Source: Oscillospiraceae bacterium (lineage in GTDB: Bacteria > Bacillota > Clostridia > Oscillospirales > Oscillospiraceae). Taken from it: 41,444 nt of DNA. Both the position numbers and the translations under genes were made by a program. The number at the start of each line of letters is the position of its first letter. Position 1 is the first letter of the stretch. The stretch spans positions 1 to 41,444 of the forward strand of contig CADAHL010000011.1 of assembly GCA_902787755.1 (NCBI GenBank), read 5' to 3'. This document shows, in pieces, positions 5,567 through 31,430 of the stretch. The notes under the pieces are model-generated. The model was not told where the DNA came from and ran no database searches. It saw only the letters and a program-made list of their open reading frames with translations.

Positions 5567-5587
5567 CGCCAAAATGCCTTTTGCAAG

Positions 5588-5679
5588 CCTCATCTTTCGT
5601 CTCACCGCCGGATTTGGCACCTTGAACAAACAGGTTGCCGGGCTTCACAGGGCCGTTCCCTCCACCACTCTTGATAAGG
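5588..5679 (-). promoter_or_regulatory. SAM-I (S-box) riboswitch aptamer
   Basis: On the minus strand the conserved S-box landmarks occur in order: CTTATCAAGAG with GGTGGAGGGA, then GCCCTGTGAAGCCCGGCAAC, then AAGGTGCCAA and the closing GAAAGATGAG. Helix P1 pairs CCTTATC (5679-5673) with GATGAGG (5594-5588). The terminator at 5538-5566 forms the off state. Together with metK downstream the assignment is secure. Confidence 0.97.
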
Positions 5680-5698
5680 TGTTCAATTTTCGAATGAC

Positions 5699-8288: not shown

Positions 8289-8389
8289 AGTGAATAGTGA
8301 ATCGTTGTGGTATCGCCTGCGGCGATGATTACAATCCGTCCGCGGAGCGGACACCTTCACTATTCACTATTCATTATTCACTATTCACT
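8289..8389. mobile_element. Family B heptamer element B1, between glgD and glgP
   Basis: The right array (8356-8389), read on the minus strand, is GTGAATA-type heptamers beginning the base after the glgD TAA. The left array (8289-8302) is the same heptamers in inverted orientation. Between them are two perfect 6-bp hairpins with 3-base loops: ATCGCC-tgc-GGCGAT (8312-8326) and GTCCGC-gga-GCGGAC (8338-8352). No gene fits inside. It closely resembles element B2 at 10764-10880. Confidence 0.7.
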
Positions 8390-9505
8390 TTATATTTTGG
8401 TCCACTTGGGCACCAGCATCGGGAGCTTCTCGCTGCCGGTGAGCACGGTGCCGTCGGAGAAGACGCAGTCCTTGTCGACGATGACGTTGGTCAGCTGAAC
8501 CCCTTCGCCGATCACGGTGCCGCGCATGACGATGCAGTTTTTCAGCTTGGCGCCGGCGCCGATCTTCACGCCGGAGAAGATGGTGCAGTTCTCAACCTCG
8601 CCTTCGATGATGCAGTTGTCGGCCACCAGGCTGTTGCGGGCCACGGCATGCTCGCCGTAGTAGGTGCTGACGCCCTCGTGCTCCTTGGTGCGCACGGGCC
8701 GGTCGGCCGGAAAGAGCTGCCGGCGGATCTCCGGGTTCAGCATGTCCTTGCTGGCGTCGTAGTACTCGTCCACGCTGCGCACGATCTTGGCGTAGCCCGG
8801 GTGGATATACACGCCCATTCTGCCGCCGCGGGTCAGGAACAGGGTCATGGCGTCCTGATGGAAGCGGTGCAGGTTCTTGGCCTGGCAGTCGTCCAGGAGC
8901 TTGAGCAGCACGTCCTTCTTGAAGATGTAGCCCTCCAGGGTGGGCACGCCCTCATGGTCGTTGCCGGTGCGGTAAAGGGCGATCTGCTGAACCATGCCGT
9001 CCTTGTCCAGGATATAGCGGTTGTGGGAGGTCTCCAGCTCGTGGTCGGCGCAGATGGCGGTGGCCTCGGCCCCGGACTTCTCGTGCTGCTGGATGGCGGC
9101 GCGCAGATCCAGGTTGGCGCAGAGGTTGCCCAGCATCAGAATGATGTTCTCCTGGGGGATGGAGCGCACGTAGGAGCCCACAGCGTTCAGAGCTTCCACC
9201 GTGCCGTTGTAGTTGCCGGTGTGGTACTGGGGCACGCCGAAGGGGGGCAGCATCTTCAGACCGCCCTTGGCCCGGCTCATATCCCAGGGCTTGCCGCTGC
9301 CGATGTGGTCCAGCAGGGACTGGTAGTCCCGCTGCATGATGACGCCCACGTTCAGGATCCCGGCATTGCGCAGGGAGGACAGGGCGAAGTCGATGAGACG
9401 ATAGCGGCCGCAGAAGGGCAGGCTGGCGGCGGTGCGGACAGCGACCAGCTCGCGCAGGGCGGGCTCGTCATGATAGGCAAAAATGATACCATGATAGTCT
9501 CTCAT
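8390..9505 (-). CDS. glgD: GlgD, ADP-glucose pyrophosphorylase partner subunit
   Basis: GlgD is the second, generally non-catalytic or weakly active subunit of the ADP-glucose pyrophosphorylase of Gram-positive bacteria; it forms a complex with GlgC. The 371 residues contain a nucleotidyltransferase fold with SLPFCGRYRLIDFALSSLRNAGI at residues about 28-50 and a C-terminal left-handed beta-helix (hexapeptide repeats such as GVKIGAGAKLKNCIV). The N-terminal GGxGxRL loop of true pyrophosphorylases is absent, which separates GlgD from GlgC. It starts 2 bp after the glgC stop, so the two subunits are co-translated. Confidence 0.95.
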   Translation of the reverse strand: MRDYHGIIFAYHDEPALRELVAVRTAASLPFCGRYRLIDFALSSLRNAGILNVGVIMQRDYQSLLDHIGSGKPWDMSRAKGGLKMLPPFGVPQYHTGNYNGTVEALNAVGSYVRSIPQENIILMLGNLCANLDLRAAIQQHEKSGAEATAICADHELETSHNRYILDKDGMVQQIALYRTGNDHEGVPTLEGYIFKKDVLLKLLDDCQAKNLHRFHQDAMTLFLTRGGRMGVYIHPGYAKIVRSVDEYYDASKDMLNPEIRRQLFPADRPVRTKEHEGVSTYYGEHAVARNSLVADNCIIEGEVENCTIFSGVKIGAGAKLKNCIVMRGTVIGEGVQLTNVIVDKDCVFSDGTVLTGSEKLPMLVPKWTKI

Positions 9506-10763: not shown

Positions 10764-10880
10764 GAGTGAATAATGAATAACGAATAATGAATAGTTAAGG
10801 TATCGCCTTCGGCGATGATTTTAAAATCCGTCCCCGAAGGGGACACCACAACTGTTCACTTTTCCCTATTCACTATTCTC
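10764..10880. mobile_element. Family B heptamer element B2, between pth and glgC
   Basis: The right array (10854-10880) starts directly after the pth TAA and reads on the minus strand GAGAATA, GTGAATA, GGGAAAA, GTGAACA. The left array (10764-10796) is the inverted counterpart. The core has hairpins ATCGCC-ttc-GGCGAT (10802-10816) and GTCCCC-gaa-GGGGAC (10830-10844). The second hairpin differs from B1 by a compensated base pair. No coding frame is inside. Confidence 0.7.
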
Positions 10881-12688: not shown

Positions 12689-13798
12689 ATGCTGGAATTT
12701 GAAGAATACAAGGGAAAACTCAACGCCGCCAAGCCCACGCTGGAGGTGCTGCGGGGCGCTTTGAAGCTGGAGGCCGCCCAGAAGGAGATCGAAGAGCTGG
12801 AGGCCGCCAGCGAACGGGAGGGCTTCTGGAACGACGTGGCCAACTCCCAGAAGGTCCAGAAGCGGCTGAAGGTCCTGAAGACCAAGGTGGAGGGCTATCA
12901 GAAGCTCTGCAGTGCCTGGGACGATCTGTACGCCCTGTGCGAGATGGCCCTGGAGGAGAACGACGACTCCATGCTGGAGGAGCTGAAGGAGGGCTTCGAG
13001 GACTTTTCCGAGAAGGCCGAATCCATGCGCCTGAGCACTCTGCTCACCGGCGAGTACGACGCGAACAACGCCATTCTCACCTTCCACGCCGGCGCCGGCG
13101 GCACCGAGGCCCAGGACTGGGCCAGCATGCTCTACCGCATGTACAACATGTGGGCCGAGCGCCACGGCTATAAGGTCAAGGTCATGGACTATCTGGACGG
13201 AGACGAGGCGGGGCTCAAGAGCGCCACTATCATGATCGAGGGCGAGAACGCCTACGGCTTCCTGAGAAGCGAGCATGGAGTGCACCGGCTGGTGCGGGTC
13301 TCCCCCTTCGACGCTGCCGGCCGGCGGCACACCTCCTTTGCCGCGGTGGAGGTCATGCCCGAGATCTCCGCGGACGACACCGAGATCGAGCTGCGGGACG
13401 AGGACATCGAGATGCAGGTCTACCGCTCCTCCGGCGCCGGCGGTCAGAAGGTCAATAAGACCTCCTCTGCGGTGCGTCTGATCCACAAGCCCACGGGCAT
13501 CGTGGTCTCCTCCCAGGTGGAGCGGAGTCATTTCCAGAACCTGGAAAACTGCAAGAACATGCTGAGGGCCCGCCTGGCAGAGATCAAGGAGCGGGAGCAC
13601 CTGGAGAAGATCAGCGATATCAAGGGCGTGCAGATGAAGATCGAATGGGGCAGCCAGATCCGCTCCTACGTGTTCATGCCCTACCAGCTGGTAAAGGATC
13701 TGCGCACCGAGTATGAGACCGGCGCCATCCAGAGCGTGATGGACGGGGACCTGGACGGCTTCATCAACGCCTTCCTGTCCATGAGAGCGGCAAGTTAA
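12689..13798 (+). CDS. prfB: Peptide chain release factor 2
   Basis: RF2 recognises UGA and UAA stop codons and triggers peptide release. The 369 residues carry the stop-reading SPF tripeptide (RVSPFDAAG) and the peptidyl-transferase GGQ loop (SSGAGGQKVNKTSS). ATG 12689 has a GGGAGA site, and MLEFEEYKGKL matches the family start. The family often needs a programmed +1 frameshift near codon 25; here the reading frame is continuous, so that autoregulation is absent. The TAA stop overlaps the first two bases of a family A heptamer array. Confidence 0.96.
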   Translation: MLEFEEYKGKLNAAKPTLEVLRGALKLEAAQKEIEELEAASEREGFWNDVANSQKVQKRLKVLKTKVEGYQKLCSAWDDLYALCEMALEENDDSMLEELKEGFEDFSEKAESMRLSTLLTGEYDANNAILTFHAGAGGTEAQDWASMLYRMYNMWAERHGYKVKVMDYLDGDEAGLKSATIMIEGENAYGFLRSEHGVHRLVRVSPFDAAGRRHTSFAAVEVMPEISADDTEIELRDEDIEMQVYRSSGAGGQKVNKTSSAVRLIHKPTGIVVSSQVERSHFQNLENCKNMLRARLAEIKEREHLEKISDIKGVQMKIEWGSQIRSYVFMPYQLVKDLRTEYETGAIQSVMDGDLDGFINAFLSMRAAS

Positions 13799-14064
13799 TT
13801 CGGAATTCGGAGTTCGGAATTCGGAATTATGGGTCGAGAAAGCTGCTTCCGGTGTAAATGAAACAGGGTGGTTATTTCCGATACCCATACAGGGAGGGAA
13901 GGCTCAAGGGCTTTCCCTCCCTGCTGTCGTTTATTCCCGCCGCCGATCGGCGCGAACCGCTCGGGTAACCGCAAGGGCGAAGCGCAGCAGAGGACGCCCC
14001 TGCGGCATAACGGTACGTTCTCGTTAAACTCCGAACTCCGAACTCCGAATTCCGAATTCCGAAC
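13797..14064. mobile_element. Family A heptamer element A1, between prfB and aspartokinase
   Basis: The left array (13797-13829) consists of tandem RTTCGGA heptamers overlapping the prfB stop. The right array (14027-14064) is the same heptamers inverted. The 197-bp interior has no convincing gene. It holds a long hairpin at 13890-13923 and, near the right array, a GCAGAGG...CCCCTGC hairpin (13987-14003) that recurs in element A2. Confidence 0.7.
13890..13923 (+). terminator. Hairpin inside element A1, probable prfB terminator
   Basis: CAGGGAGGGAA at 13890-13900 pairs with TTCCCTCCCTG at 13913-13923, with extra pairing inside. The T tract after it is weak, so termination is likely but not certain. 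Confidence 0.55.
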
Positions 14065-14132
14065 TTTCACAATCTCCTCCCCTTCCGAGTAGGATGAAGT
14101 GGCCGGAGGCTCCGGCCATGGGAGGAACAATC

Positions 14133-18105: not shown

Positions 18106-18432
18106 AATTCGAAGTTCGGAATTCGGAATTGAGCAGACGCGCTGCTATGCCGCGGGGCCGACGCCTACCGATAGGCACGCAGCCCGGCGGCCCGCGCGGG
18201 TCGACGTCTCCTGCCCCCTCTTGGGCAGGCAAGTGCGGCCGAAGGCCGACAGGACCCCTTTCGTCGGCTGCGCCTACACCTCCCCCTGAGGGGGAGGCAA
18301 GCTACACCGATCCTCAATTCGTCGCGAGGCGGCACCGCAACGATTCATGATTCACCCTCGCAGAGGCTGGCCCCTGCGGTATGACAGCAGGTTCTCCCTG
18401 AATTCCGAACTCCGAACTCCGAATTCCGAATT
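18106..18432. mobile_element. Family A heptamer element A2, after the metallophosphoesterase
   Basis: The left array (18106-18130) starts 1 bp after the TAA. The right array (18401-18432) is the inverted counterpart with RTTCGGA units. The 270-bp interior has no convincing gene but three hairpins: CCTGCCC/GGGCAGG (18210-18229), CCTCCCCC/GGGGGAGG (18279-18297) and GCAGAGG/CCCCTGC (18360-18377). The last, with the bases after it, matches the equivalent part of element A1. Confidence 0.7.
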
Positions 18433-23031: not shown

Positions 23032-23730
23032 CTACGCGCCTCCCATGCCCAGAAGCCACACGGACACGCCGTTGTTGAGCATGTGCAGGAAGATACTGCA
23101 CCAGATGCTTCCGGTATTGTCATAGCACCAGGCCAGCAGAAAGGCCGCGGGCAGATACTGCACCACGAAGATGATCTGGCTGGGGTCCACCAGAGCAAAG
23201 CTCCAGACGTGATAGGCCGCGAAGACCGCAATGGTGACCACATAGGCCAGGGCCTTGTTTTTCCGACGGATGGTGCCGAACAGGCCCGCCCGGAACAGCA
23301 GCTCCTCGGCGATGGGCGCCAGGAAGATCACCACGCCGGCCATGGGGCCGTAGCTCTCGTCCAGCATCTCCATCACGGCGTCGTTGTTGGGGTTCAGGTC
23401 CTCCACAAAGGGGTAGAGGATCAGGTTTACCGCCATATTTCCCAGCAGGATCAGCCCGTAGCACACGGCGATGATCCGCAGGTTCAGGGCCAGGCGGTCG
23501 CACAGGGGGTCAAAGTCCCGGCGCAGCGCCGTAAAATTGACCGCCACCAGTACCAGGCAGCTGACGCCGTAGTAAACGAGGTTGATCTCCAGCTCGTCAA
23601 GCCCGGGAAACAGCAGCACCAGCGCCACGGGCAGGCCGATCAGGTGCATCGGCAGCCACAGCAGGGTCAGGATCCGCTGGGCAAGGCTCAGGCTGCCCGG
23701 CGCGGGAAGGGGATGTTCTCTCCTGCTCAT
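23032..23730 (-). CDS. CPBP family intramembrane metalloprotease
   Basis: A 232-residue membrane protein with about seven hydrophobic helices. The CPBP (Abi/CAAX protease-like) motifs are present: APIAEELLFRAGLFG with the EExxxR pair, FAAYHVWSF with the metal-binding His, and SIFLHMLNNGVS with the second His. It is thus an intact putative intramembrane protease of unknown substrate. ATG 23730 overlaps the mutS stop (ATGA), so it is coupled to mutS. Confidence 0.88.
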   Translation of the reverse strand: MSRREHPLPAPGSLSLAQRILTLLWLPMHLIGLPVALVLLFPGLDELEINLVYYGVSCLVLVAVNFTALRRDFDPLCDRLALNLRIIAVCYGLILLGNMAVNLILYPFVEDLNPNNDAVMEMLDESYGPMAGVVIFLAPIAEELLFRAGLFGTIRRKNKALAYVVTIAVFAAYHVWSFALVDPSQIIFVVQYLPAAFLLAWCYDNTGSIWCSIFLHMLNNGVSVWLLGMGGA

Positions 23731-26324
23731 GCTCTCGCCTTCCTCTGCAGGTCGAAGAGCAGGTTCATGCACTCCAGGGGCGTCAGGGTGTTCAGGTCCG
23801 TATCCCGCAGGATCTGCCGGACCTCGTCGGCCCCCACGTCGGCCAGGCTGATCTGGTCCTCCTCCCCGAAGCTCACCGGCGGGGCGATACCCTCGGTCTC
23901 CAGCTCCTTGAGGTAGCCCTTGGCCTTCTGGATCACCGCCTCCGGCAGCCCTGCCAGCTTGGCCACCTCGATGCCATAGCTGTCGTCCGCCGCGCCCCGG
24001 ACGATCTTGCGCAGGAACACCAGCTCGCCCTTCTGCTTCTTGGCGGTGATGTTGTAGTTGCGCACGCCGGGGACCTGACCCTCCAGGGCGGAGAGCTCGT
24101 GATAGTGGGTGGCGAACATGGTCTTGGCCCCCAGCTTCCGCTTGTCGGCGCAGTGCTCCAGCACCGCCCGGGCGATGGCCATGCCGTCAAAGGTGGAGGT
24201 GCCTCGGCCGATCTCGTCCAGGATCAGCAGGGAGTTGGCGGTGGCGTGGCGCAGGATCTGGGCCATCTCGTTCATCTCCACCATAAAGGTGGACTGGCCG
24301 GAGGCCAGGTCGTCGGAGGCGCCGATCCTGGTAAAGACCCGGTCCACCACCCCGATGGTGGCGCTTTTGGCCGGGACGAAGGAGCCCATCTGGGCCATCA
24401 GCACGATCAGGGCCGTCTGGCGCATATAGGTGGATTTGCCCGCCATGTTGGGGCCGGTGACGATGGCCACCCGATCGTCGGAGTCGTTGAGATAGGTGTC
24501 GTTGGGGACGAAGAGCACGTCCTTCATGGTCTGCTCCACCACCGGATGCCGGCCCTCCAGGATCCTCAGATCCCGGGAGTCGTCCACCTCGGGGCAGGTG
24601 TAGTTGTTGCGCACCGCCACCTCCGCCAGGGAGCACAGCGCATCCAGCCGGGCCACCGCGTCGGCGGCGGCCTGGATCCGGGCCACCTGCCGGGCCACGT
24701 TGTCCCGCAGCTGGGTGAAATACTCGTACTCCAGGTCGTTGATGCGGTTCCTGGCAGACAGCAGATCGCTCTCCAGCTGCTTGAGCTCCTGGGTAAAATA
24801 GCGCTCGTTGGAAACCAGGGTCTGCTTGCGGATATAGTCCTCCGGCACGTTCTCCAGCCCCGCGGACCGGGGCACGTCGATGTAATAGCCGAAGATCTTG
24901 TTGTAGCCCACCTTCAGCTTTTTGATGCCGGTGCGCTCCCGCTCCCGGGCCTCCAGCTCGGTGACCATCTGAGCGCCGTGATCTCGGATGCCCCGGAGCC
25001 GGTCCACCAGCTCCGAATACCCGGGGCGCAGAATGTCGCCCTCCCGCACGGAGAATGGGGGATCGTCGGAGATGGCCCGGTCAATGTCCGTCCGGATATC
25101 CTCCAGCGCGTCCATTCGGGCGATGTCCCTCAGCTCCCGGCAGGAAAAGCCCTGCAGCAGCTCCTTGAGCCGGGGCAGCATGGCGCAGCAGTTGCACAGC
25201 GAGCGCAGATCCCGGCCGCCGGCGGTGCCGTAAACACACCTTCCCACCAGGCGCTGCATGTCGTGGATCTCCCGCAGGGCCAGGATCAGCTCCGGCCTGG
25301 TCACGTTATCCTTCGCCAGGGCCTCTACCGCCGCCAGGCGGCGCTTGATGGCCACCACGCTCAGCAGGGGCCGCTCCACCCAGGAGCGGAGCATCCGGGA
25401 GCCCATGGGAGTCCGGGTCTTGTCCAGCACCCAGAGCAGACTTCCCTTCTTCTCCCCGGTGCGCAGGCTCTCGGTCAGCTCCAGGCTGCGGCGGGTGGTC
25501 CAGTCCAGCTCCATATAGCGTCCGCCGAAGAACACGTCCAGCTTCCGGATGTGCCCCAGGTCGAACTTCTGGGTGTCCTCCAGATAGCGCAGCAGCGCCC
25601 CGGCGGCGCACACGGCGGAGCCGTCAGCGCCCAGCCCGGCCTGGTCCACGTCCTCAAAGCCGAACTGACGGCAGACCGTGGCGGCGGCGGGCATATACTC
25701 AAAATATTCTCCAGGCTCCTCCAGCATGGCGTTCAGCTTGCCCCGGAGAAACTCGGTCAGGCTCTGCTCCGCCAGGGCTCCGGCGGACAGCAGGGCTTCC
25801 CGGGGGGAGAAGCGGCCCAGCTCGTTCATCAGATGATTCACCGGGTCCTGATCGAAGGCGGCCACGCAGAATTCGCCGGTGGACAGATCACAGAAGGCGG
25901 CGGCGCCTTTTCCGGCCTCCAGGGAAACCGAGCAGATATAGTTGCTGCGCTTTTCGTCCAGCATGGAGCTGTCGGTGACGGTGCCGGGGGTGATGATGCG
26001 GATGACCTCCCGCTGGACCAGGCCCTTGGCCAGGGCCGGGTCCTCGGTCTGCTCGCAGATGGCCACCTTGTAGCCCTTGGCGATGAGCCGGGCGATATAG
26101 GCGTCGCAGCTGTGGTAAGGCACGCCGCACATGGGGGTGCGCTCCGCCGGGTCCTCCACGTTCCGGTCCCGGGTGGTCAGGGCGATGTCCAGTTCCCGGG
26201 AGGCCAGGATGGCGTCATCGTCGAACATCTCATAGAAATCCCCCAGGCGGAAAAACAGCAGGCAATCCGGGTACTGGGCCTTGATCTCCTGATATTGCTT
26301 TTTCATGGGAGTCAATTCTGCCAT
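23727..26324 (-). CDS. mutS: DNA mismatch repair protein MutS
   Basis: MutS binds mismatches and, with ATP, recruits MutL. The 865 residues start MAELTPMKKQYQEIKAQYPD, followed by the mismatch-contacting FYEMF (F-x-E) motif. The C-terminal ATPase has Walker A GPNMAGKSTYMRQ, Walker B LLILDEIGRGTSTFDG and the ABC signature region. ATG 26324 is the family start, but no Shine-Dalgarno is visible: the 32-bp family A array ends three bases before it. Translation must use another initiation signal, or is weak. mutL is nearby on the opposite strand. Confidence 0.97.
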   Translation of the reverse strand: MAELTPMKKQYQEIKAQYPDCLLFFRLGDFYEMFDDDAILASRELDIALTTRDRNVEDPAERTPMCGVPYHSCDAYIARLIAKGYKVAICEQTEDPALAKGLVQREVIRIITPGTVTDSSMLDEKRSNYICSVSLEAGKGAAAFCDLSTGEFCVAAFDQDPVNHLMNELGRFSPREALLSAGALAEQSLTEFLRGKLNAMLEEPGEYFEYMPAAATVCRQFGFEDVDQAGLGADGSAVCAAGALLRYLEDTQKFDLGHIRKLDVFFGGRYMELDWTTRRSLELTESLRTGEKKGSLLWVLDKTRTPMGSRMLRSWVERPLLSVVAIKRRLAAVEALAKDNVTRPELILALREIHDMQRLVGRCVYGTAGGRDLRSLCNCCAMLPRLKELLQGFSCRELRDIARMDALEDIRTDIDRAISDDPPFSVREGDILRPGYSELVDRLRGIRDHGAQMVTELEARERERTGIKKLKVGYNKIFGYYIDVPRSAGLENVPEDYIRKQTLVSNERYFTQELKQLESDLLSARNRINDLEYEYFTQLRDNVARQVARIQAAADAVARLDALCSLAEVAVRNNYTCPEVDDSRDLRILEGRHPVVEQTMKDVLFVPNDTYLNDSDDRVAIVTGPNMAGKSTYMRQTALIVLMAQMGSFVPAKSATIGVVDRVFTRIGASDDLASGQSTFMVEMNEMAQILRHATANSLLILDEIGRGTSTFDGMAIARAVLEHCADKRKLGAKTMFATHYHELSALEGQVPGVRNYNITAKKQKGELVFLRKIVRGAADDSYGIEVAKLAGLPEAVIQKAKGYLKELETEGIAPPVSFGEEDQISLADVGADEVRQILRDTDLNTLTPLECMNLLFDLQRKARA

Positions 26325-26327
26325 GAT

Positions 26328-26878
26328 AATTCGGAATTCGGAACTCGGAATTCGGAATTTCTTCCAAATTGGAGCCGAACGCCTTCTCCTTTCCTGGTGG
26401 TTCGGTATTCAAAGCCAGGAATCTCTTCCGGCCCGGAATCGAACGCCATTTTTCTCTATAGCGCGGAAATTGCTTTCTTGTCTCAAAGGCTCTTTCGCAG
26501 AGTTCTGGTAATGGCTGTCAGAAGCCGGATCAGCTCCTGGCAGTCGGCATACAAGCTCTCAAATTCCCGGGTGCGAATGTATCCTCCCTCATGAAGCAGC
26601 TCCAGCCAATAAGCCGTTTCGTCCGCTTCCTTGAGCGCGATGGTCAGCTTGGTGTAAAAGTCCGCTCGGGATTGTGCTCTTGCCGCTTCCCGGATGTTGG
26701 CGCCAATGCTGGTGCCGCTGCGCAGGGCTTGCCGAGACAGTACAAATTCGTGTTTTTCTTCGCTCAAAAAGCGATATAAGCCCACGATCCGCAGGGCAAA
26801 AGCCTTGCTTTTCTCCGCAATCACACTGGATCTTTCCATTCTGCTCAATTCCGAACTCCGAACTCCGAATTCCGAATT
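26328..26878 (-). mobile_element. Family A heptamer element A3 carrying a four-helix-bundle gene
   Basis: This element lies between the 3' end of miaB and the start of mutS. Array one (26847-26878) and array two (26328-26359) are RTTCGGA-type heptamers in inverted orientation, about 490 bp apart. Inside are a complete four-helix-bundle gene (26483-26839) and a 123-bp non-coding tail (26360-26482). The left array lies 3 bp from the mutS ATG. The right array encodes the last residues and the stop of miaB. No transposase or reverse transcriptase is inside. Confidence 0.75.
26483..26839 (-). CDS. Four-helix-bundle protein, S23/IVP-Avd family
   Basis: The 118-residue protein is all-alpha with the family signature in order: IAEKSKAFALRIVGLYRFLS, QALRSGTSIGANIREA, FYTKLTIALKEADETAYWLELL. 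This is the family of 23S rRNA intervening-sequence proteins, related to Avd, the accessory protein of diversity-generating retroelements. Family members are known as nucleic-acid binders in those settings. The gene starts 8 bp inside the family A array, at ATG 26839; an upstream TTG in the array (26848) also is in frame. I infer it serves the flanking heptamer element. It is the only clear gene in the element. Confidence 0.9.
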   Translation of the reverse strand: MERSSVIAEKSKAFALRIVGLYRFLSEEKHEFVLSRQALRSGTSIGANIREAARAQSRADFYTKLTIALKEADETAYWLELLHEGGYIRTREFESLYADCQELIRLLTAITRTLRKSL

Positions 26879-28281
26879 TCACCATACAGCGCCCAGGTGT
26901 TGGAGGCGGTGATGGTCACCTCCGCGAACTGCCCCACCAGGCTCGGCTCGCCCTTCAGGTGCACCAGTCTTCCGCCGTCAGTGCGGGCGGAGAGATTGTA
27001 CTCCTCCCGGCCGGTCTCGCCGTCGATGAGCACCCGCAGGGTCCGGCCCTCGTACTCTCTGTGCTTCTCGCCGGAGATGCGGTTCGAGAGCTCCGTCAGT
27101 CGGTCGAAGTGCTTCTGCTTGTCGGCCCGGGTATAGGGATCTGGCATGGAGGCCGCCGGGGTCCCCACCCGCTTGGAATAGATGAAGGTGAACATGGCGT
27201 CGTAGCGGACCTCCTCCACCAGGGAGAGCGTATCCTCGAACTCCTCCTCGGTCTCCCCGGGGAAGCCCACGATGATATCCGTGGTCAGCACCAGATCCGG
27301 CATGTAGGACCGGGCCAGGCGCACCTGCTCCAGATACTTCTCCCGGGTGTAGCTGCGGTTCATGGCCTTCAGCACCCGGTTGCTGCCGGACTGGACGGGC
27401 AGATGGATGTGGTGGGCGCAGTGCCGGCTCTCGGCCATGGTGCGGAAGAGCTTCTCGGTGGCGTCCTTGGGATGGCTGGTCATGAAGCGCAGCACATAGT
27501 CGCCGTCAATGGCGTCCACCATGCGGATCAGATCGGCGAAATCCACTCCCAGGCCCAGATCCTTCCCGTAGGAGTTCACGTTCTGGCCCAGAAGGGTGAT
27601 GTCCTTATACCCGGCGGCGATCAGCTCCCGGGCCTCGGCCACCACCTCCTCCGGGCGGCGGGAGCGCTCCCGGCCCCGGACGTAGGGGACGATGCAGTAG
27701 GTACAGAAGTTGTTGCAGCCGTACATGATACTCAGCCAGGCCTTCACGCTGCCGTCCCGGCGCTGAGGGATCCCCTCCACCACGGCGCCGTCGCTCTTCT
27801 CCGTGGCGAAGACCCGCTTTTTGCCGGTCATGGCCCTCTCCAGCAGCTCCGGAAAGCGCCAGAGCTCGTGGGGTCCGAAGACCAGATCCACGATGGGATA
27901 GGACTTTTTGATCTTCTCGGCGATGTGGGGCTGCTGCACCATGCAGCCGCAGACGGCGATGATCTGATGGGGCCGGGCCTTTTTCGTGTGGTTCAGCGCG
28001 CCCACGTTCCCGAAGACCCGCATCTCCGCGTGCTCCCGCACCGCGCAGGTATTCACCACGATCACGTCCGCCTGAAACTCGTCCCGGGTAAAGCCGTAGC
28101 CCATCTCGGCCAGATAGCCTCTCAGCTTTTCGCTGTCGGCCTCGTTCTGCTGGCAGCCGTAGGTGTCCACCATGGCCAGGGGGCGCTGCCCGTCCGCGGT
28201 GACCCGGTCAAAGATCCGCCGGCAGATCTCCTCCTGCCGGGCGATCTCCTCCGGCGCGATCTCTTTTCTTTCGTAGCTCAT
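26845..28281 (-). CDS. miaB: tRNA-2-methylthio-N6-dimethylallyladenosine synthase MiaB
   Basis: MiaB adds a methylthio group to i6A37 of tRNAs with a radical-SAM and a second iron-sulfur cluster. The 478 residues have the N-terminal cluster cysteines (DTYGCQQNEADSEKL, VNTCAVREHAEMR, VCGCMVQQ), the radical-SAM CNNFCTYC motif in a MYGCNNFCTYCIVPYVRG context, and a C-terminal TRAM domain. ATG 28281 follows AGAGGGA. The last eleven residues (EIRNSEFGVRN) come from the family A array, which also supplies the TGA, so the native end has been replaced. It makes i6A-dependent modification together with miaA in the facing operon. Confidence 0.97.
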   Translation of the reverse strand: MSYERKEIAPEEIARQEEICRRIFDRVTADGQRPLAMVDTYGCQQNEADSEKLRGYLAEMGYGFTRDEFQADVIVVNTCAVREHAEMRVFGNVGALNHTKKARPHQIIAVCGCMVQQPHIAEKIKKSYPIVDLVFGPHELWRFPELLERAMTGKKRVFATEKSDGAVVEGIPQRRDGSVKAWLSIMYGCNNFCTYCIVPYVRGRERSRRPEEVVAEARELIAAGYKDITLLGQNVNSYGKDLGLGVDFADLIRMVDAIDGDYVLRFMTSHPKDATEKLFRTMAESRHCAHHIHLPVQSGSNRVLKAMNRSYTREKYLEQVRLARSYMPDLVLTTDIIVGFPGETEEEFEDTLSLVEEVRYDAMFTFIYSKRVGTPAASMPDPYTRADKQKHFDRLTELSNRISGEKHREYEGRTLRVLIDGETGREEYNLSARTDGGRLVHLKGEPSLVGQFAEVTITASNTWALYGEIRNSEFGVRN

Positions 28282-28314
28282 AGTTCTATCCCTCTGCAGA
28301 TAATAATTCATGGT

Positions 28315-30394: not shown

Positions 30395-31329
30395 AAAAAG
30401 ACACGCAGATGCTTGTGGTGGCCGGCCCCACCGCCACGGGCAAGACCGCCCTGGGCATCGCTCTGGCCCGGGCGCTGGGGGGCGAGATCGTCTCCGCCGA
30501 CTCCATGCAGATCTACCGCCGGATGGACATCGGCACCGCCAAGGCCACAGCCGGGGAGCAGGCTCTGGCCGCGCACCACATGATCGACGTGTGTGAGCCC
30601 TGGGAGAACTACTCCGTCTCCCGCTACGTGGACGAGGCCTCCCGGGTCTGCGACCGGCTGATCGCGGAGGGAAAGCTGCCCATTGTGGTGGGCGGCACCG
30701 GGCTGTATATCGACTCTCTGCTCTCCGGCCGGGATTTCGCCGGGCGGCAGGAGGAGGATGAGAGCCTGCGGGAGCGGCTGAACGCGGAGTACGACAGGCT
30801 CGGCGGCGAGGCCATGCGCCGGCAGCTGGCGGCCTTTGACCCGGAGCGGGCGGAAAAGCTCCATCCCGGGGATCGGCGCCGGATCGTCCGGGCCATCGAG
30901 ATCTATGAGCTCACCGGGAAGACCATCACCCAGCACGACCGGGAGACCCGGCTCCTGCCGCCCCGGTATCGGGCGGAGAAGCTGTGCCTGAGCTTCCGGG
31001 ACCGGGAGTGGCTTTACGAGCGCATCGACCGCCGGGTGGACTGGATGGTGGCCGAGGGACTCTTCGACGAGGTGGAGGCCCTGCTGCGGGAGGGCCTGAG
31101 TCCGGACTGCACCGCCATGCAGGCCATCGGCTACAAGGAGGCCGCCCTGGCCCTCCGGGGCGAGCTGTCCCGGCAGGAGGCCGCGGACCTCATCAAGCAG
31201 TCCAGCCGCCGCTACGCCAAAAGGCAGCTGACCTGGTTTAAACGCGACCCGGAGGCCTGCTGGTTTCTCTGGGACCGGGAGCCGGATATCCAGGGCGCCG
31301 TTGAAACGATAGTGAAAAACGAAGAGTGA
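30391..31329 (+). CDS. miaA: tRNA dimethylallyltransferase MiaA
   Basis: MiaA puts the dimethylallyl group on A37 of tRNAs reading UNN codons, the substrate MiaB then methylthiolates. The 312 residues show the P-loop VVAGPTATGKTALG, SADSMQIYRRMDIGTAK, VGGTGLYIDSLL and QAIGYKEAALAL. It overlaps mutL by 4 bp. The final residues IVKNEE and the TGA are encoded by a family B heptamer array that begins at 31311, so the native C-terminus has been altered. Confidence 0.96.
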   Translation: MKKDTQMLVVAGPTATGKTALGIALARALGGEIVSADSMQIYRRMDIGTAKATAGEQALAAHHMIDVCEPWENYSVSRYVDEASRVCDRLIAEGKLPIVVGGTGLYIDSLLSGRDFAGRQEEDESLRERLNAEYDRLGGEAMRRQLAAFDPERAEKLHPGDRRRIVRAIEIYELTGKTITQHDRETRLLPPRYRAEKLCLSFRDREWLYERIDRRVDWMVAEGLFDEVEALLREGLSPDCTAMQAIGYKEAALALRGELSRQEAADLIKQSSRRYAKRQLTWFKRDPEACWFLWDREPDIQGAVETIVKNEE

Positions 31330-31430
31330 AGAGTGAAGCGTTATGGTGTCGGCTTCGCCGACGGAATGAATATGCGCAGTGTCTCTTTTGCCTTTCTCTT
31401 TTCACTCTTCTCTCTTCACTCTTCGCTTCG
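31311..31430. mobile_element. Family B heptamer element B3, at the miaA stop
   Basis: The left array (31311-31340) has the units GAAGAGT and GTGAAGA with a 7-bp period and overlaps the miaA stop. The right array (31386-31430) is its inverted counterpart. The core has one clear hairpin, GTCGGC-ttc-GCCGAC (31348-31362), equivalent to the first hairpin of B1 and B2 but with compensated base changes. No gene fits inside. Confidence 0.65.

Follow-up and report, generated by a model that had tools for sequence, protein, structure and literature searches.

An S23 gene between inverted heptamer arrays at a miaB-mutS junction, and heptamer-armed S23 genes in many bacterial phyla

The stretch of DNA analyzed here (the window, 41,444 nucleotides from an Oscillospiraceae bacterium) carries an S23 gene between two inverted arrays of RTTCGGA heptamers, and such arrays, hereafter referred to as arms, are shown at the sequence level to accompany S23 genes in many phyla, within 23S rRNA, within RNase P RNA, and between protein genes. 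Thus, the initial observation is confirmed and generalizes strongly beyond the window. In our estimation, the window element is probably (at roughly 60%) a mobile element of the intervening sequence (IVS) type located outside of 23S rRNA, with a presumptive pentameric protein that would read arms composed of five cores. The original prediction had assigned the protein to the S23/IVP-type family, which was borne out by its profile matches to both PF05635 (8.7e-28, 97.1 bits vs. a curated cut-off of 33.8) and TIGR02436 (8.4e-32, 109.6 bits vs. a curated cut-off of 24); the window protein is a plain S23 family member. The predicted cassette between miaB and mutS is likewise real, as its two arms are 91% complementary, are separated by 487 nt, and are reported by TRF with a period of 7 (Table 1). 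The S23 gene, mutS, and miaB are all located on one strand (minus), and the genome from which the window derives encodes a total of three S23 genes. An S23-type ORF within complementary ends is a defining trait of a 23S IVS and is present in the window element, whereas its position between miaB and mutS is not that of a 23S IVS; the element works like an IVS but does not reside in 23S rRNA. When the window was compared with Rfam, only a tRNA and a SAM riboswitch reached the gathering score and no 23S rRNA was detected. The riboswitch (5587-5680, minus strand) is an ordinary one.

Table 1. Positions of the S23 element, its neighbors, and the gene-less elements in the window
Feature	Position	Strand	Remarks
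Left arm, RTTCGGA heptamer array, 32 nt	26328-26359	+	Five ARTT-type cores at 7-nt spacing, the third being AACT
S23/IVP (TIGR02436) four-helix-bundle gene	26483-26839	-	118 aa from the in-frame ATG at 26839; ORF 26483-26848 encodes 121 aa from TTG at 26848
Right arm, inverted RTTCGGA array, 32 nt	26847-26878	-	miaB ORF runs across the right arm
MutS ORF	23727-26324	-	NCBIfam equivalog
MiaB ORF	26845-28311	-	NCBIfam equivalog
Gene-less family A element, RTTCGGA arms	13797-14065		Array search
Gene-less family A element, RTTCGGA arms	18106-18432		Array search
Gene-less family B element, GTGAATA-type arms around two hairpins (GGTATCGCC...GGACACC)	8290-8391		Left arm short
Gene-less family B element	10765-10880		Two-hairpin core
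Gene-less element, GTGAAGA-type arms	31321-31428

The AlphaFold2 model of the window protein consists of four helices (pLDDT 94.6) and has the four-helix bundle fold of the S23 family. It matches 2rld with a TM of 0.88 and 56-60% identity, and it also matches 2gsc, the S23 structure of Xcc0516 from X. campestris. Weaker matches were obtained to Avd (4dwl) and to a complex of a diversity-generating retroelement (DGR; 8ub7), both at TM ~0.73 and with Foldseek E values of 0.035 and 0.062, respectively. The anticipated ties of the family to the 23S IVS and to Avd therefore hold, the latter by fold. Avd is a pentamer, and five chains were deposited for 2rld and 2gsc alike, from which we infer that the S23 protein is probably pentameric as well.

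S23 loci were gathered at the levels of genus, family, and phylum as well as from other phyla, and the expectation that arrays co-occur with the S23 family elsewhere was upheld. Among the first 60 loci, period-7 arrays were present near the S23 gene in 32 loci and in the far flanks in 6, while a survey of periods 4 to 15 found enrichment besides 7 at 14 alone. For a set of 80 loci, the titles of which cover Clostridia, Acidobacteria, Planctomycetes, Bacteroidetes, Proteobacteria, Chloroflexi, Verrucomicrobia, cyanobacteria, and others, period-7 arrays occurred at 0.948 per kb near the S23 gene vs. 0.091 per kb in the far flanks (~tenfold), with period 8 forming a minor second (8 near arrays vs. 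80 of period 7). We then scored both sides of 147 S23 loci with complete flanks, of which 54 had both arms, 23 the upstream arm alone, 21 the downstream arm alone, and 49 neither, the counts being of non-independent events as the loci include close relatives. By comparison, when 536 control positions were taken by shifting within these loci, none had both arms and 20 had one. Separated by source, the 73 loci from the 80-locus set comprised 30 with both arms, 17 with one, and 26 with none, and the 74 loci from the genome searches comprised 24, 27, and 23, respectively. These 147 remained from 152 genes (75 genome-search loci plus 77 of the 80 multi-phylum loci) once five with short flanks had been set aside; L105, L113, and L118 had been excluded due to stops in the trimmed frame, and broken or partial S23 genes such as L029-L031, L039, L054-L057, L150, L155, L161, L167, and L168 had been excluded as well. 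An identical 7-mer is present in both arms as reverse complements in 51 of the 54 two-armed loci, compared with 2.8% under shuffled pairing, and some of the 49 loci that are armless at our threshold have short or degenerate arms when inspected by eye. Given the near/far contrast at period 7, we rejected an origin of the arrays by chance or from other periods. Eight plasmid S23 loci were also inspected (seven cyanobacterial and one from Gemmatirosa), of which six, all of them cyanobacterial, are flanked by heptamer arrays upstream and downstream.

The heptamer varies between elements, and within an element both arms match. When placed in a common register, the arms share a core consensus of A (0.64), C (0.77), and T (0.92), and they mostly start and finish on a core. 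Counting cores from the length of 162 S23-linked arms yielded five cores in 79, four in 32, and six in 18, followed by a long tail in which some arms exceed 30 copies. The window's own genome has 128 RTTCGGA array matches, several per array, and 31 stretches of it were picked for these arrays among 100 listed of the 128. Within the window and these 31 stretches, perfect ARTT(CGGARTT)n runs of at least 3 cores had five cores in 33/54 cases and four in 13/54; a relaxed count of 69/98 was set aside due to possible double counting of arms. Judged from these counts, the five-core peak would fit one pentamer per arm: each subunit of the S23 pentamer may read a single core, such that one ring would occupy one five-core arm, and two such rings might then join both ends of the element, or mark the hairpin into which it folds, so that a host enzyme could copy or move it. 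In this view, the protein would be a candidate mobility or nucleic acid-binding factor, in line with the original prediction. Elements with more closely related proteins also tend to have more similar heptamers (n=120; Mantel r 0.255, matched or exceeded by 0 of 2000 permutations), a correlation that could in part come from shared descent alone. As an example, the RTTCGGA type is common to the window protein, L019, L021, and L291, which have 69-76% mutual identity. Arm mismatches in 59 elements included 35 G.U and 45 A.C pairs, and thus there is no G.U excess and no visible selection for RNA pairing among them. The arms therefore look more like a duplicated binding site than like a stem under selection to pair in RNA.

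Arms and proteins do not seem to be rigidly locked to each other, since the heptamer differs at an orthologous site adjacent to a dGTPase gene, where several species carry related S23 elements. The arms are built from AGCGCTA in L004, TAGTTTT in L283, GAGTTTT in L288 and L401, CAGTTTT in L399, and TAGTGCT in L287, and yet the flanks and the S23 gene align through. All of the units have changed in concert, as have both arms wherever both were seen, which argues for some copying between arms. L285 is also among the dGTPase-site loci with a differing heptamer. Such joint changes of array units could also be produced if the arrays were simple repeats that grow by slippage and become palindromic by template switching, with the presence of S23 being unrelated. 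Slippage has been proposed for heptamers (PMC4692102), and it would account for the arms of >30 copies and for a copy number that differs between L223 and L231 at one site. However, slippage does not lead one to expect an arm length that peaks at five cores with no fall-off from the shortest, a period-7 enrichment beside one gene family in many phyla, or related S23 proteins with shared heptamers, and we consider it quite unlikely to be the explanation.

The reading as a mobile element was also examined at the miaB-mutS junction, for which the original prediction had suggested a comparison of strains for an empty site. The comparison comprised 52 junctions, picked out of 102 genomes of the genus for a listed mutS and miaB on one contig; genomes lacking a listed pair of this kind were left out (e.g., G022, G031, G042, and G388), as were L251 and L252. 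An S23 gene is present in four of the 52 junctions, always with arms (RTTCGGA in L199, L204, and L217, and GGAGTGT in L235), and in another four the gap measures 5 bp only. The remaining junctions include lone arrays, gene-less elements, and other cargo, and the site is accordingly variable in the genus. Two outcomes had been named in advance as damaging, namely a gene that is always found at this site with no array and arrays that do not co-occur with the family elsewhere, and neither was observed. A DUF559 gene is the cargo at the L200 and L218 junctions (profile-tested) and, by eye, at those of L201, L213, L219, and L226, and at some of these DUF559-bearing junctions one end carries an array of CTCAAAA or CTAAAAA units.

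S23 genes were also found inserted in RNA genes. Six lie within 23S rRNA as identified by Rfam (L152, L157, L161, L165, L168, and L384, broken in L161 and L168), and with a relaxed threshold, 7-periodic arms are present on at least one side of each insertion. In L161, a single 23S rRNA gene contains two insertions (1444-1884 and 2493-2613), one with the broken S23 gene and the other gene-less and 121 nt in length, which have a near-identical TTCGAAG heptamer; from their flanking sequence, we take them to be in helices 45 and 25. In G231, the near-identical S23 genes of L384-L386 were set aside, as they represent copies of a 23S rRNA gene (L384 by Rfam). In two related genomes (L159 and L162, positions 1229-2003 of these loci), an S23 element plus its arms lies within a class A RNase P RNA, where it is inserted on the same strand into a helix loop at model position 136, which is presumably P12, with the remainder of the model matched. 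This insertion could yield an RNase P RNA made in two pieces. Insertion into operons and RNA genes would be bearable if the transcribed arm stem is cut by RNase III, as described in papers on the 23S IVS, and excision by RNase III is documented for the Coxiella IVS (PMC4990558). Within the 80-locus set, S23 genes are co-oriented with the upstream gene in 59/71 cases vs. 276/433 for adjacent ORF pairs (p=4.7e-4), as if the S23 gene lives on read-through transcription, and with the downstream neighbor in 52/73 (p=0.22).

The distribution of arrays within the genus is consistent with a link to S23 as well. RTTCGGA arrays are present in 17/102 genomes of the genus, compared with 0/102 for the backwards control pattern, and an S23 match occurs in 15/17 of the array genomes vs. 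30/85 of the others (p=7.6e-5, uncorrected for relatedness and draft quality). The two array genomes in which an S23 gene was undetected are G046 and G064. S23 itself is sporadic in the genus, being found in 45/102 genomes with up to 6 matches per genome.

Gene-less copies are frequent, and the window contains several (Table 1); the family A arrays that the original prediction had recognized in two of them are real. For neither of these was an empty site recovered, as 0/8 loci tried aligned on both flanks, while the site of the second family B element in Table 1 is an armless gap of 33 or 40 bp in L327/L328 (locally identical) and L330. Across the window and the 31 own-genome stretches, family A arms formed 9 pairs and 39/57 arms were partnerless within the ~1 kb seen. 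By eye, no target-site duplication, a trait of DDE-type transposons and MITEs, was common to the nine paired elements, and in the family A copies inspected the arms were the sole part seen to be shared with the S23 element of the window. Family B can be followed further through L001 of the same genome, in which an S23 gene with GTGAATA arms is flanked by two hairpins, one of the GTGTCGCC kind and one of the GTCCGC kind. The gene-less family B elements of the window have both of these hairpin kinds side by side, and because in L001 these hairpins enclose the S23 gene, the gene-less copies look like internal deletions of an S23 element. A search for the family B core returned 14 hits representing ~11 elements (two elements were hit on both strands and L087 is likely false), among which stems of at least 5 pairs occur in 12/14 for the first hairpin and 13/14 for the second, even as their sequences change; 7-periodic flanks were present on both sides in 4/14 and on at least one side in 11/14. 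The proposal that gene-less elements are empty copies of the S23 element was thus upheld in part: arms are shared and family B has the appearance of internal deletion, whereas the family A copies have the arms alone in common with it. Such gene-less copies would presumably be served in trans.

Arrays without a gene could alternatively be operators, with the S23 pentamer acting as a TRAP-like regulator, its own arms controlling its expression, and the gene-less arrays constituting its regulon. The short distance between arm and start codon (median 35 nt) and the many partnerless family A arms would both suit an operator, and a regulatory network has been proposed for the TAACTGA heptamers of Beggiatoaceae (PMC4679880). 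We nevertheless judge this to be unlikely, since mobility better accounts for the presence of S23 elements within 23S rRNA and RNase P RNA, for the sporadic occurrence of S23 in the genus, and for the retention of an S23 element's subterminal hairpins in gene-less copies.

If the S23 element is mobile, a further question concerns the enzyme that moves it. The original prediction held that the element has no reverse transcriptase of its own, and this is accurate: none is present in the element, and RVT_1 has no match in the window's own genome (a 92%-complete draft). A reverse transcriptase encoded elsewhere could still act together with S23 as in DGRs, with the element moving through RNA, and both the Avd-like fold and the tolerance of insertion in RNA genes would agree with this. 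However, RVT_1 is unassociated with S23 in the genus (14/45 S23 genomes vs. 19/57 others, p=0.83), it has no match in the own genome despite the 128 array matches, and the arms bear no G.U signature. Consequently, we rejected a reverse transcriptase as the partner and regard this route as very improbable. A host Y1 (HUH, RAYT-like) transposase that moves the elements as hairpin DNA, as occurs with REPINs, would be in agreement with the subterminal hairpins, whose stems change yet stay complementary, and with the target-site duplication not being seen by eye in the nine paired family A elements. Y1_Tnp matches are present in 31/45 S23 genomes vs. 25/57 others (p=0.016), a weak association among draft genomes. 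Conversely, 14/45 S23 genomes have no Y1 match and arrays are not associated with Y1 (p=0.43), although draft genomes weaken these counts, and inspection of 20 stretches around Y1 matches found paired family A arms in L362 alone, ~600 bp beyond the gene, and a lone array with a different heptamer in L373. We regard a host Y1 enzyme as unlikely to be the mover. Divergent Y1 genes that appear RAYT-like by eye (L362-L381, mostly ~160-230 aa, with L375 checked against Pfam) are common in the genus.

Several known systems resemble the S23 element in part. REPIN/RAYT systems include many short, gene-less palindromic copies that are served in trans, as would be the case here, and differ from the present elements, which have heptamer arrays as their ends and an S23 gene inside. 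The likeness to Avd of DGRs is one of fold, and the difference lies in the reverse transcriptase that is absent from the element. Vioque reportedly described in 1997 STRR tandem repeats within the RNase P RNA genes of heterocyst-forming cyanobacteria. Cyanobacterial STRRs are heptamers, and here RNase P RNA was found to harbor an S23 element and heptamer arms flank S23 genes of cyanobacterial plasmids, from which we infer that STRR and S23 elements may share an origin. To our knowledge, the S23 family has a name but no explanation, and how IVSs spread has gone unexplained over the decades since they were recognized. Among the closest systems is the 23S IVS of Coxiella, where heptameric direct repeats lie upstream of the S23p ORF, and the same paper cites an earlier proposal of IVS mobility in which the ORF serves as the mobility part (PMC4990558). 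Shared with the window element are the S23 ORF within an inverted-repeat stem and the heptamers, which also arm the 23S cases examined here. The window element differs in its location between protein genes, and the five-core rule, the gene-less copies, and the generality of sites are absent from the portions of PMC4990558 available to us. X. campestris, also the source of 2gsc, has 186 GGGAATC arrays that are mostly of four units and form 70 convergent pairs (PMC4692102). These and the Nostoc GGGGA(T/C)T arrays are likewise intergenic heptamers but are treated in that paper as quadruplex-forming repeats; it states that detailed literature on heptameric repeats is unavailable, and neither "S23" nor "four helix" appears in its main text. 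In marine Beggiatoaceae, the TAACTGA repeat is again an intergenic heptamer, with an ACTG core, but it forms direct sets plus one inverted set (PMC4679880). A repeat-binding protein is named there as a possible mobile element, and "S23" and "four helix" are absent from the main text of that paper too.

No paper linking S23 genes to heptamer arrays outside of 23S rRNA was found among the matches listed in searches of an open-access library. The pieces (the 23S IVS, the Coxiella heptamers, and the Xanthomonas/Nostoc arrays) are already in print, and it is their joining that appears to be new. From its presence in many bacterial groups, the S23 unit looks like a widespread and little-noticed mobile element. 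More tentatively, and at somewhat less than even odds, it may represent a bacteria-wide form of transposase-less mobile DNA, whose five-core ends are read by a five-fold ring through lineage-specific heptamers and which would explain 23S IVSs, RNase P insertions, and the STRR, GGGAATC, and TAACTGA repeats as one thing. Should the S23 ring indeed read the five-core arm, the family would gain a function, IVSs would be one manifestation of a general element, and a single cause would account for several heptamer repeats that were published separately.

A few other arrangements were noted around S23 genes. On cyanobacterial plasmids, the S23 gene lies between ribonucleotide reductase genes in L405 and between cas6 and cas4 in L404 and L409. 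A recent transposition between two Calothrix plasmids (L382 and L383) was considered and rejected, as the genes neighboring S23 form the same run on both plasmids. Period-8 arrays take the place of period 7 around S23 in L119, L103, L121, and L124, forming an inverted pair in all of these but L121, while period-11 arrays were seen by eye at the S23 genes of L156 and L158. Lastly, a second S23 group that is armless at our threshold (L003, own-genome C29, and, e.g., L022-L026, L036, L045, L048, L053, L059, and L389) has upstream, hairpin-spaced arrays of ~18-24 nt units, the unit often being a small hairpin beside a TTCAC or TGAAG-like core.
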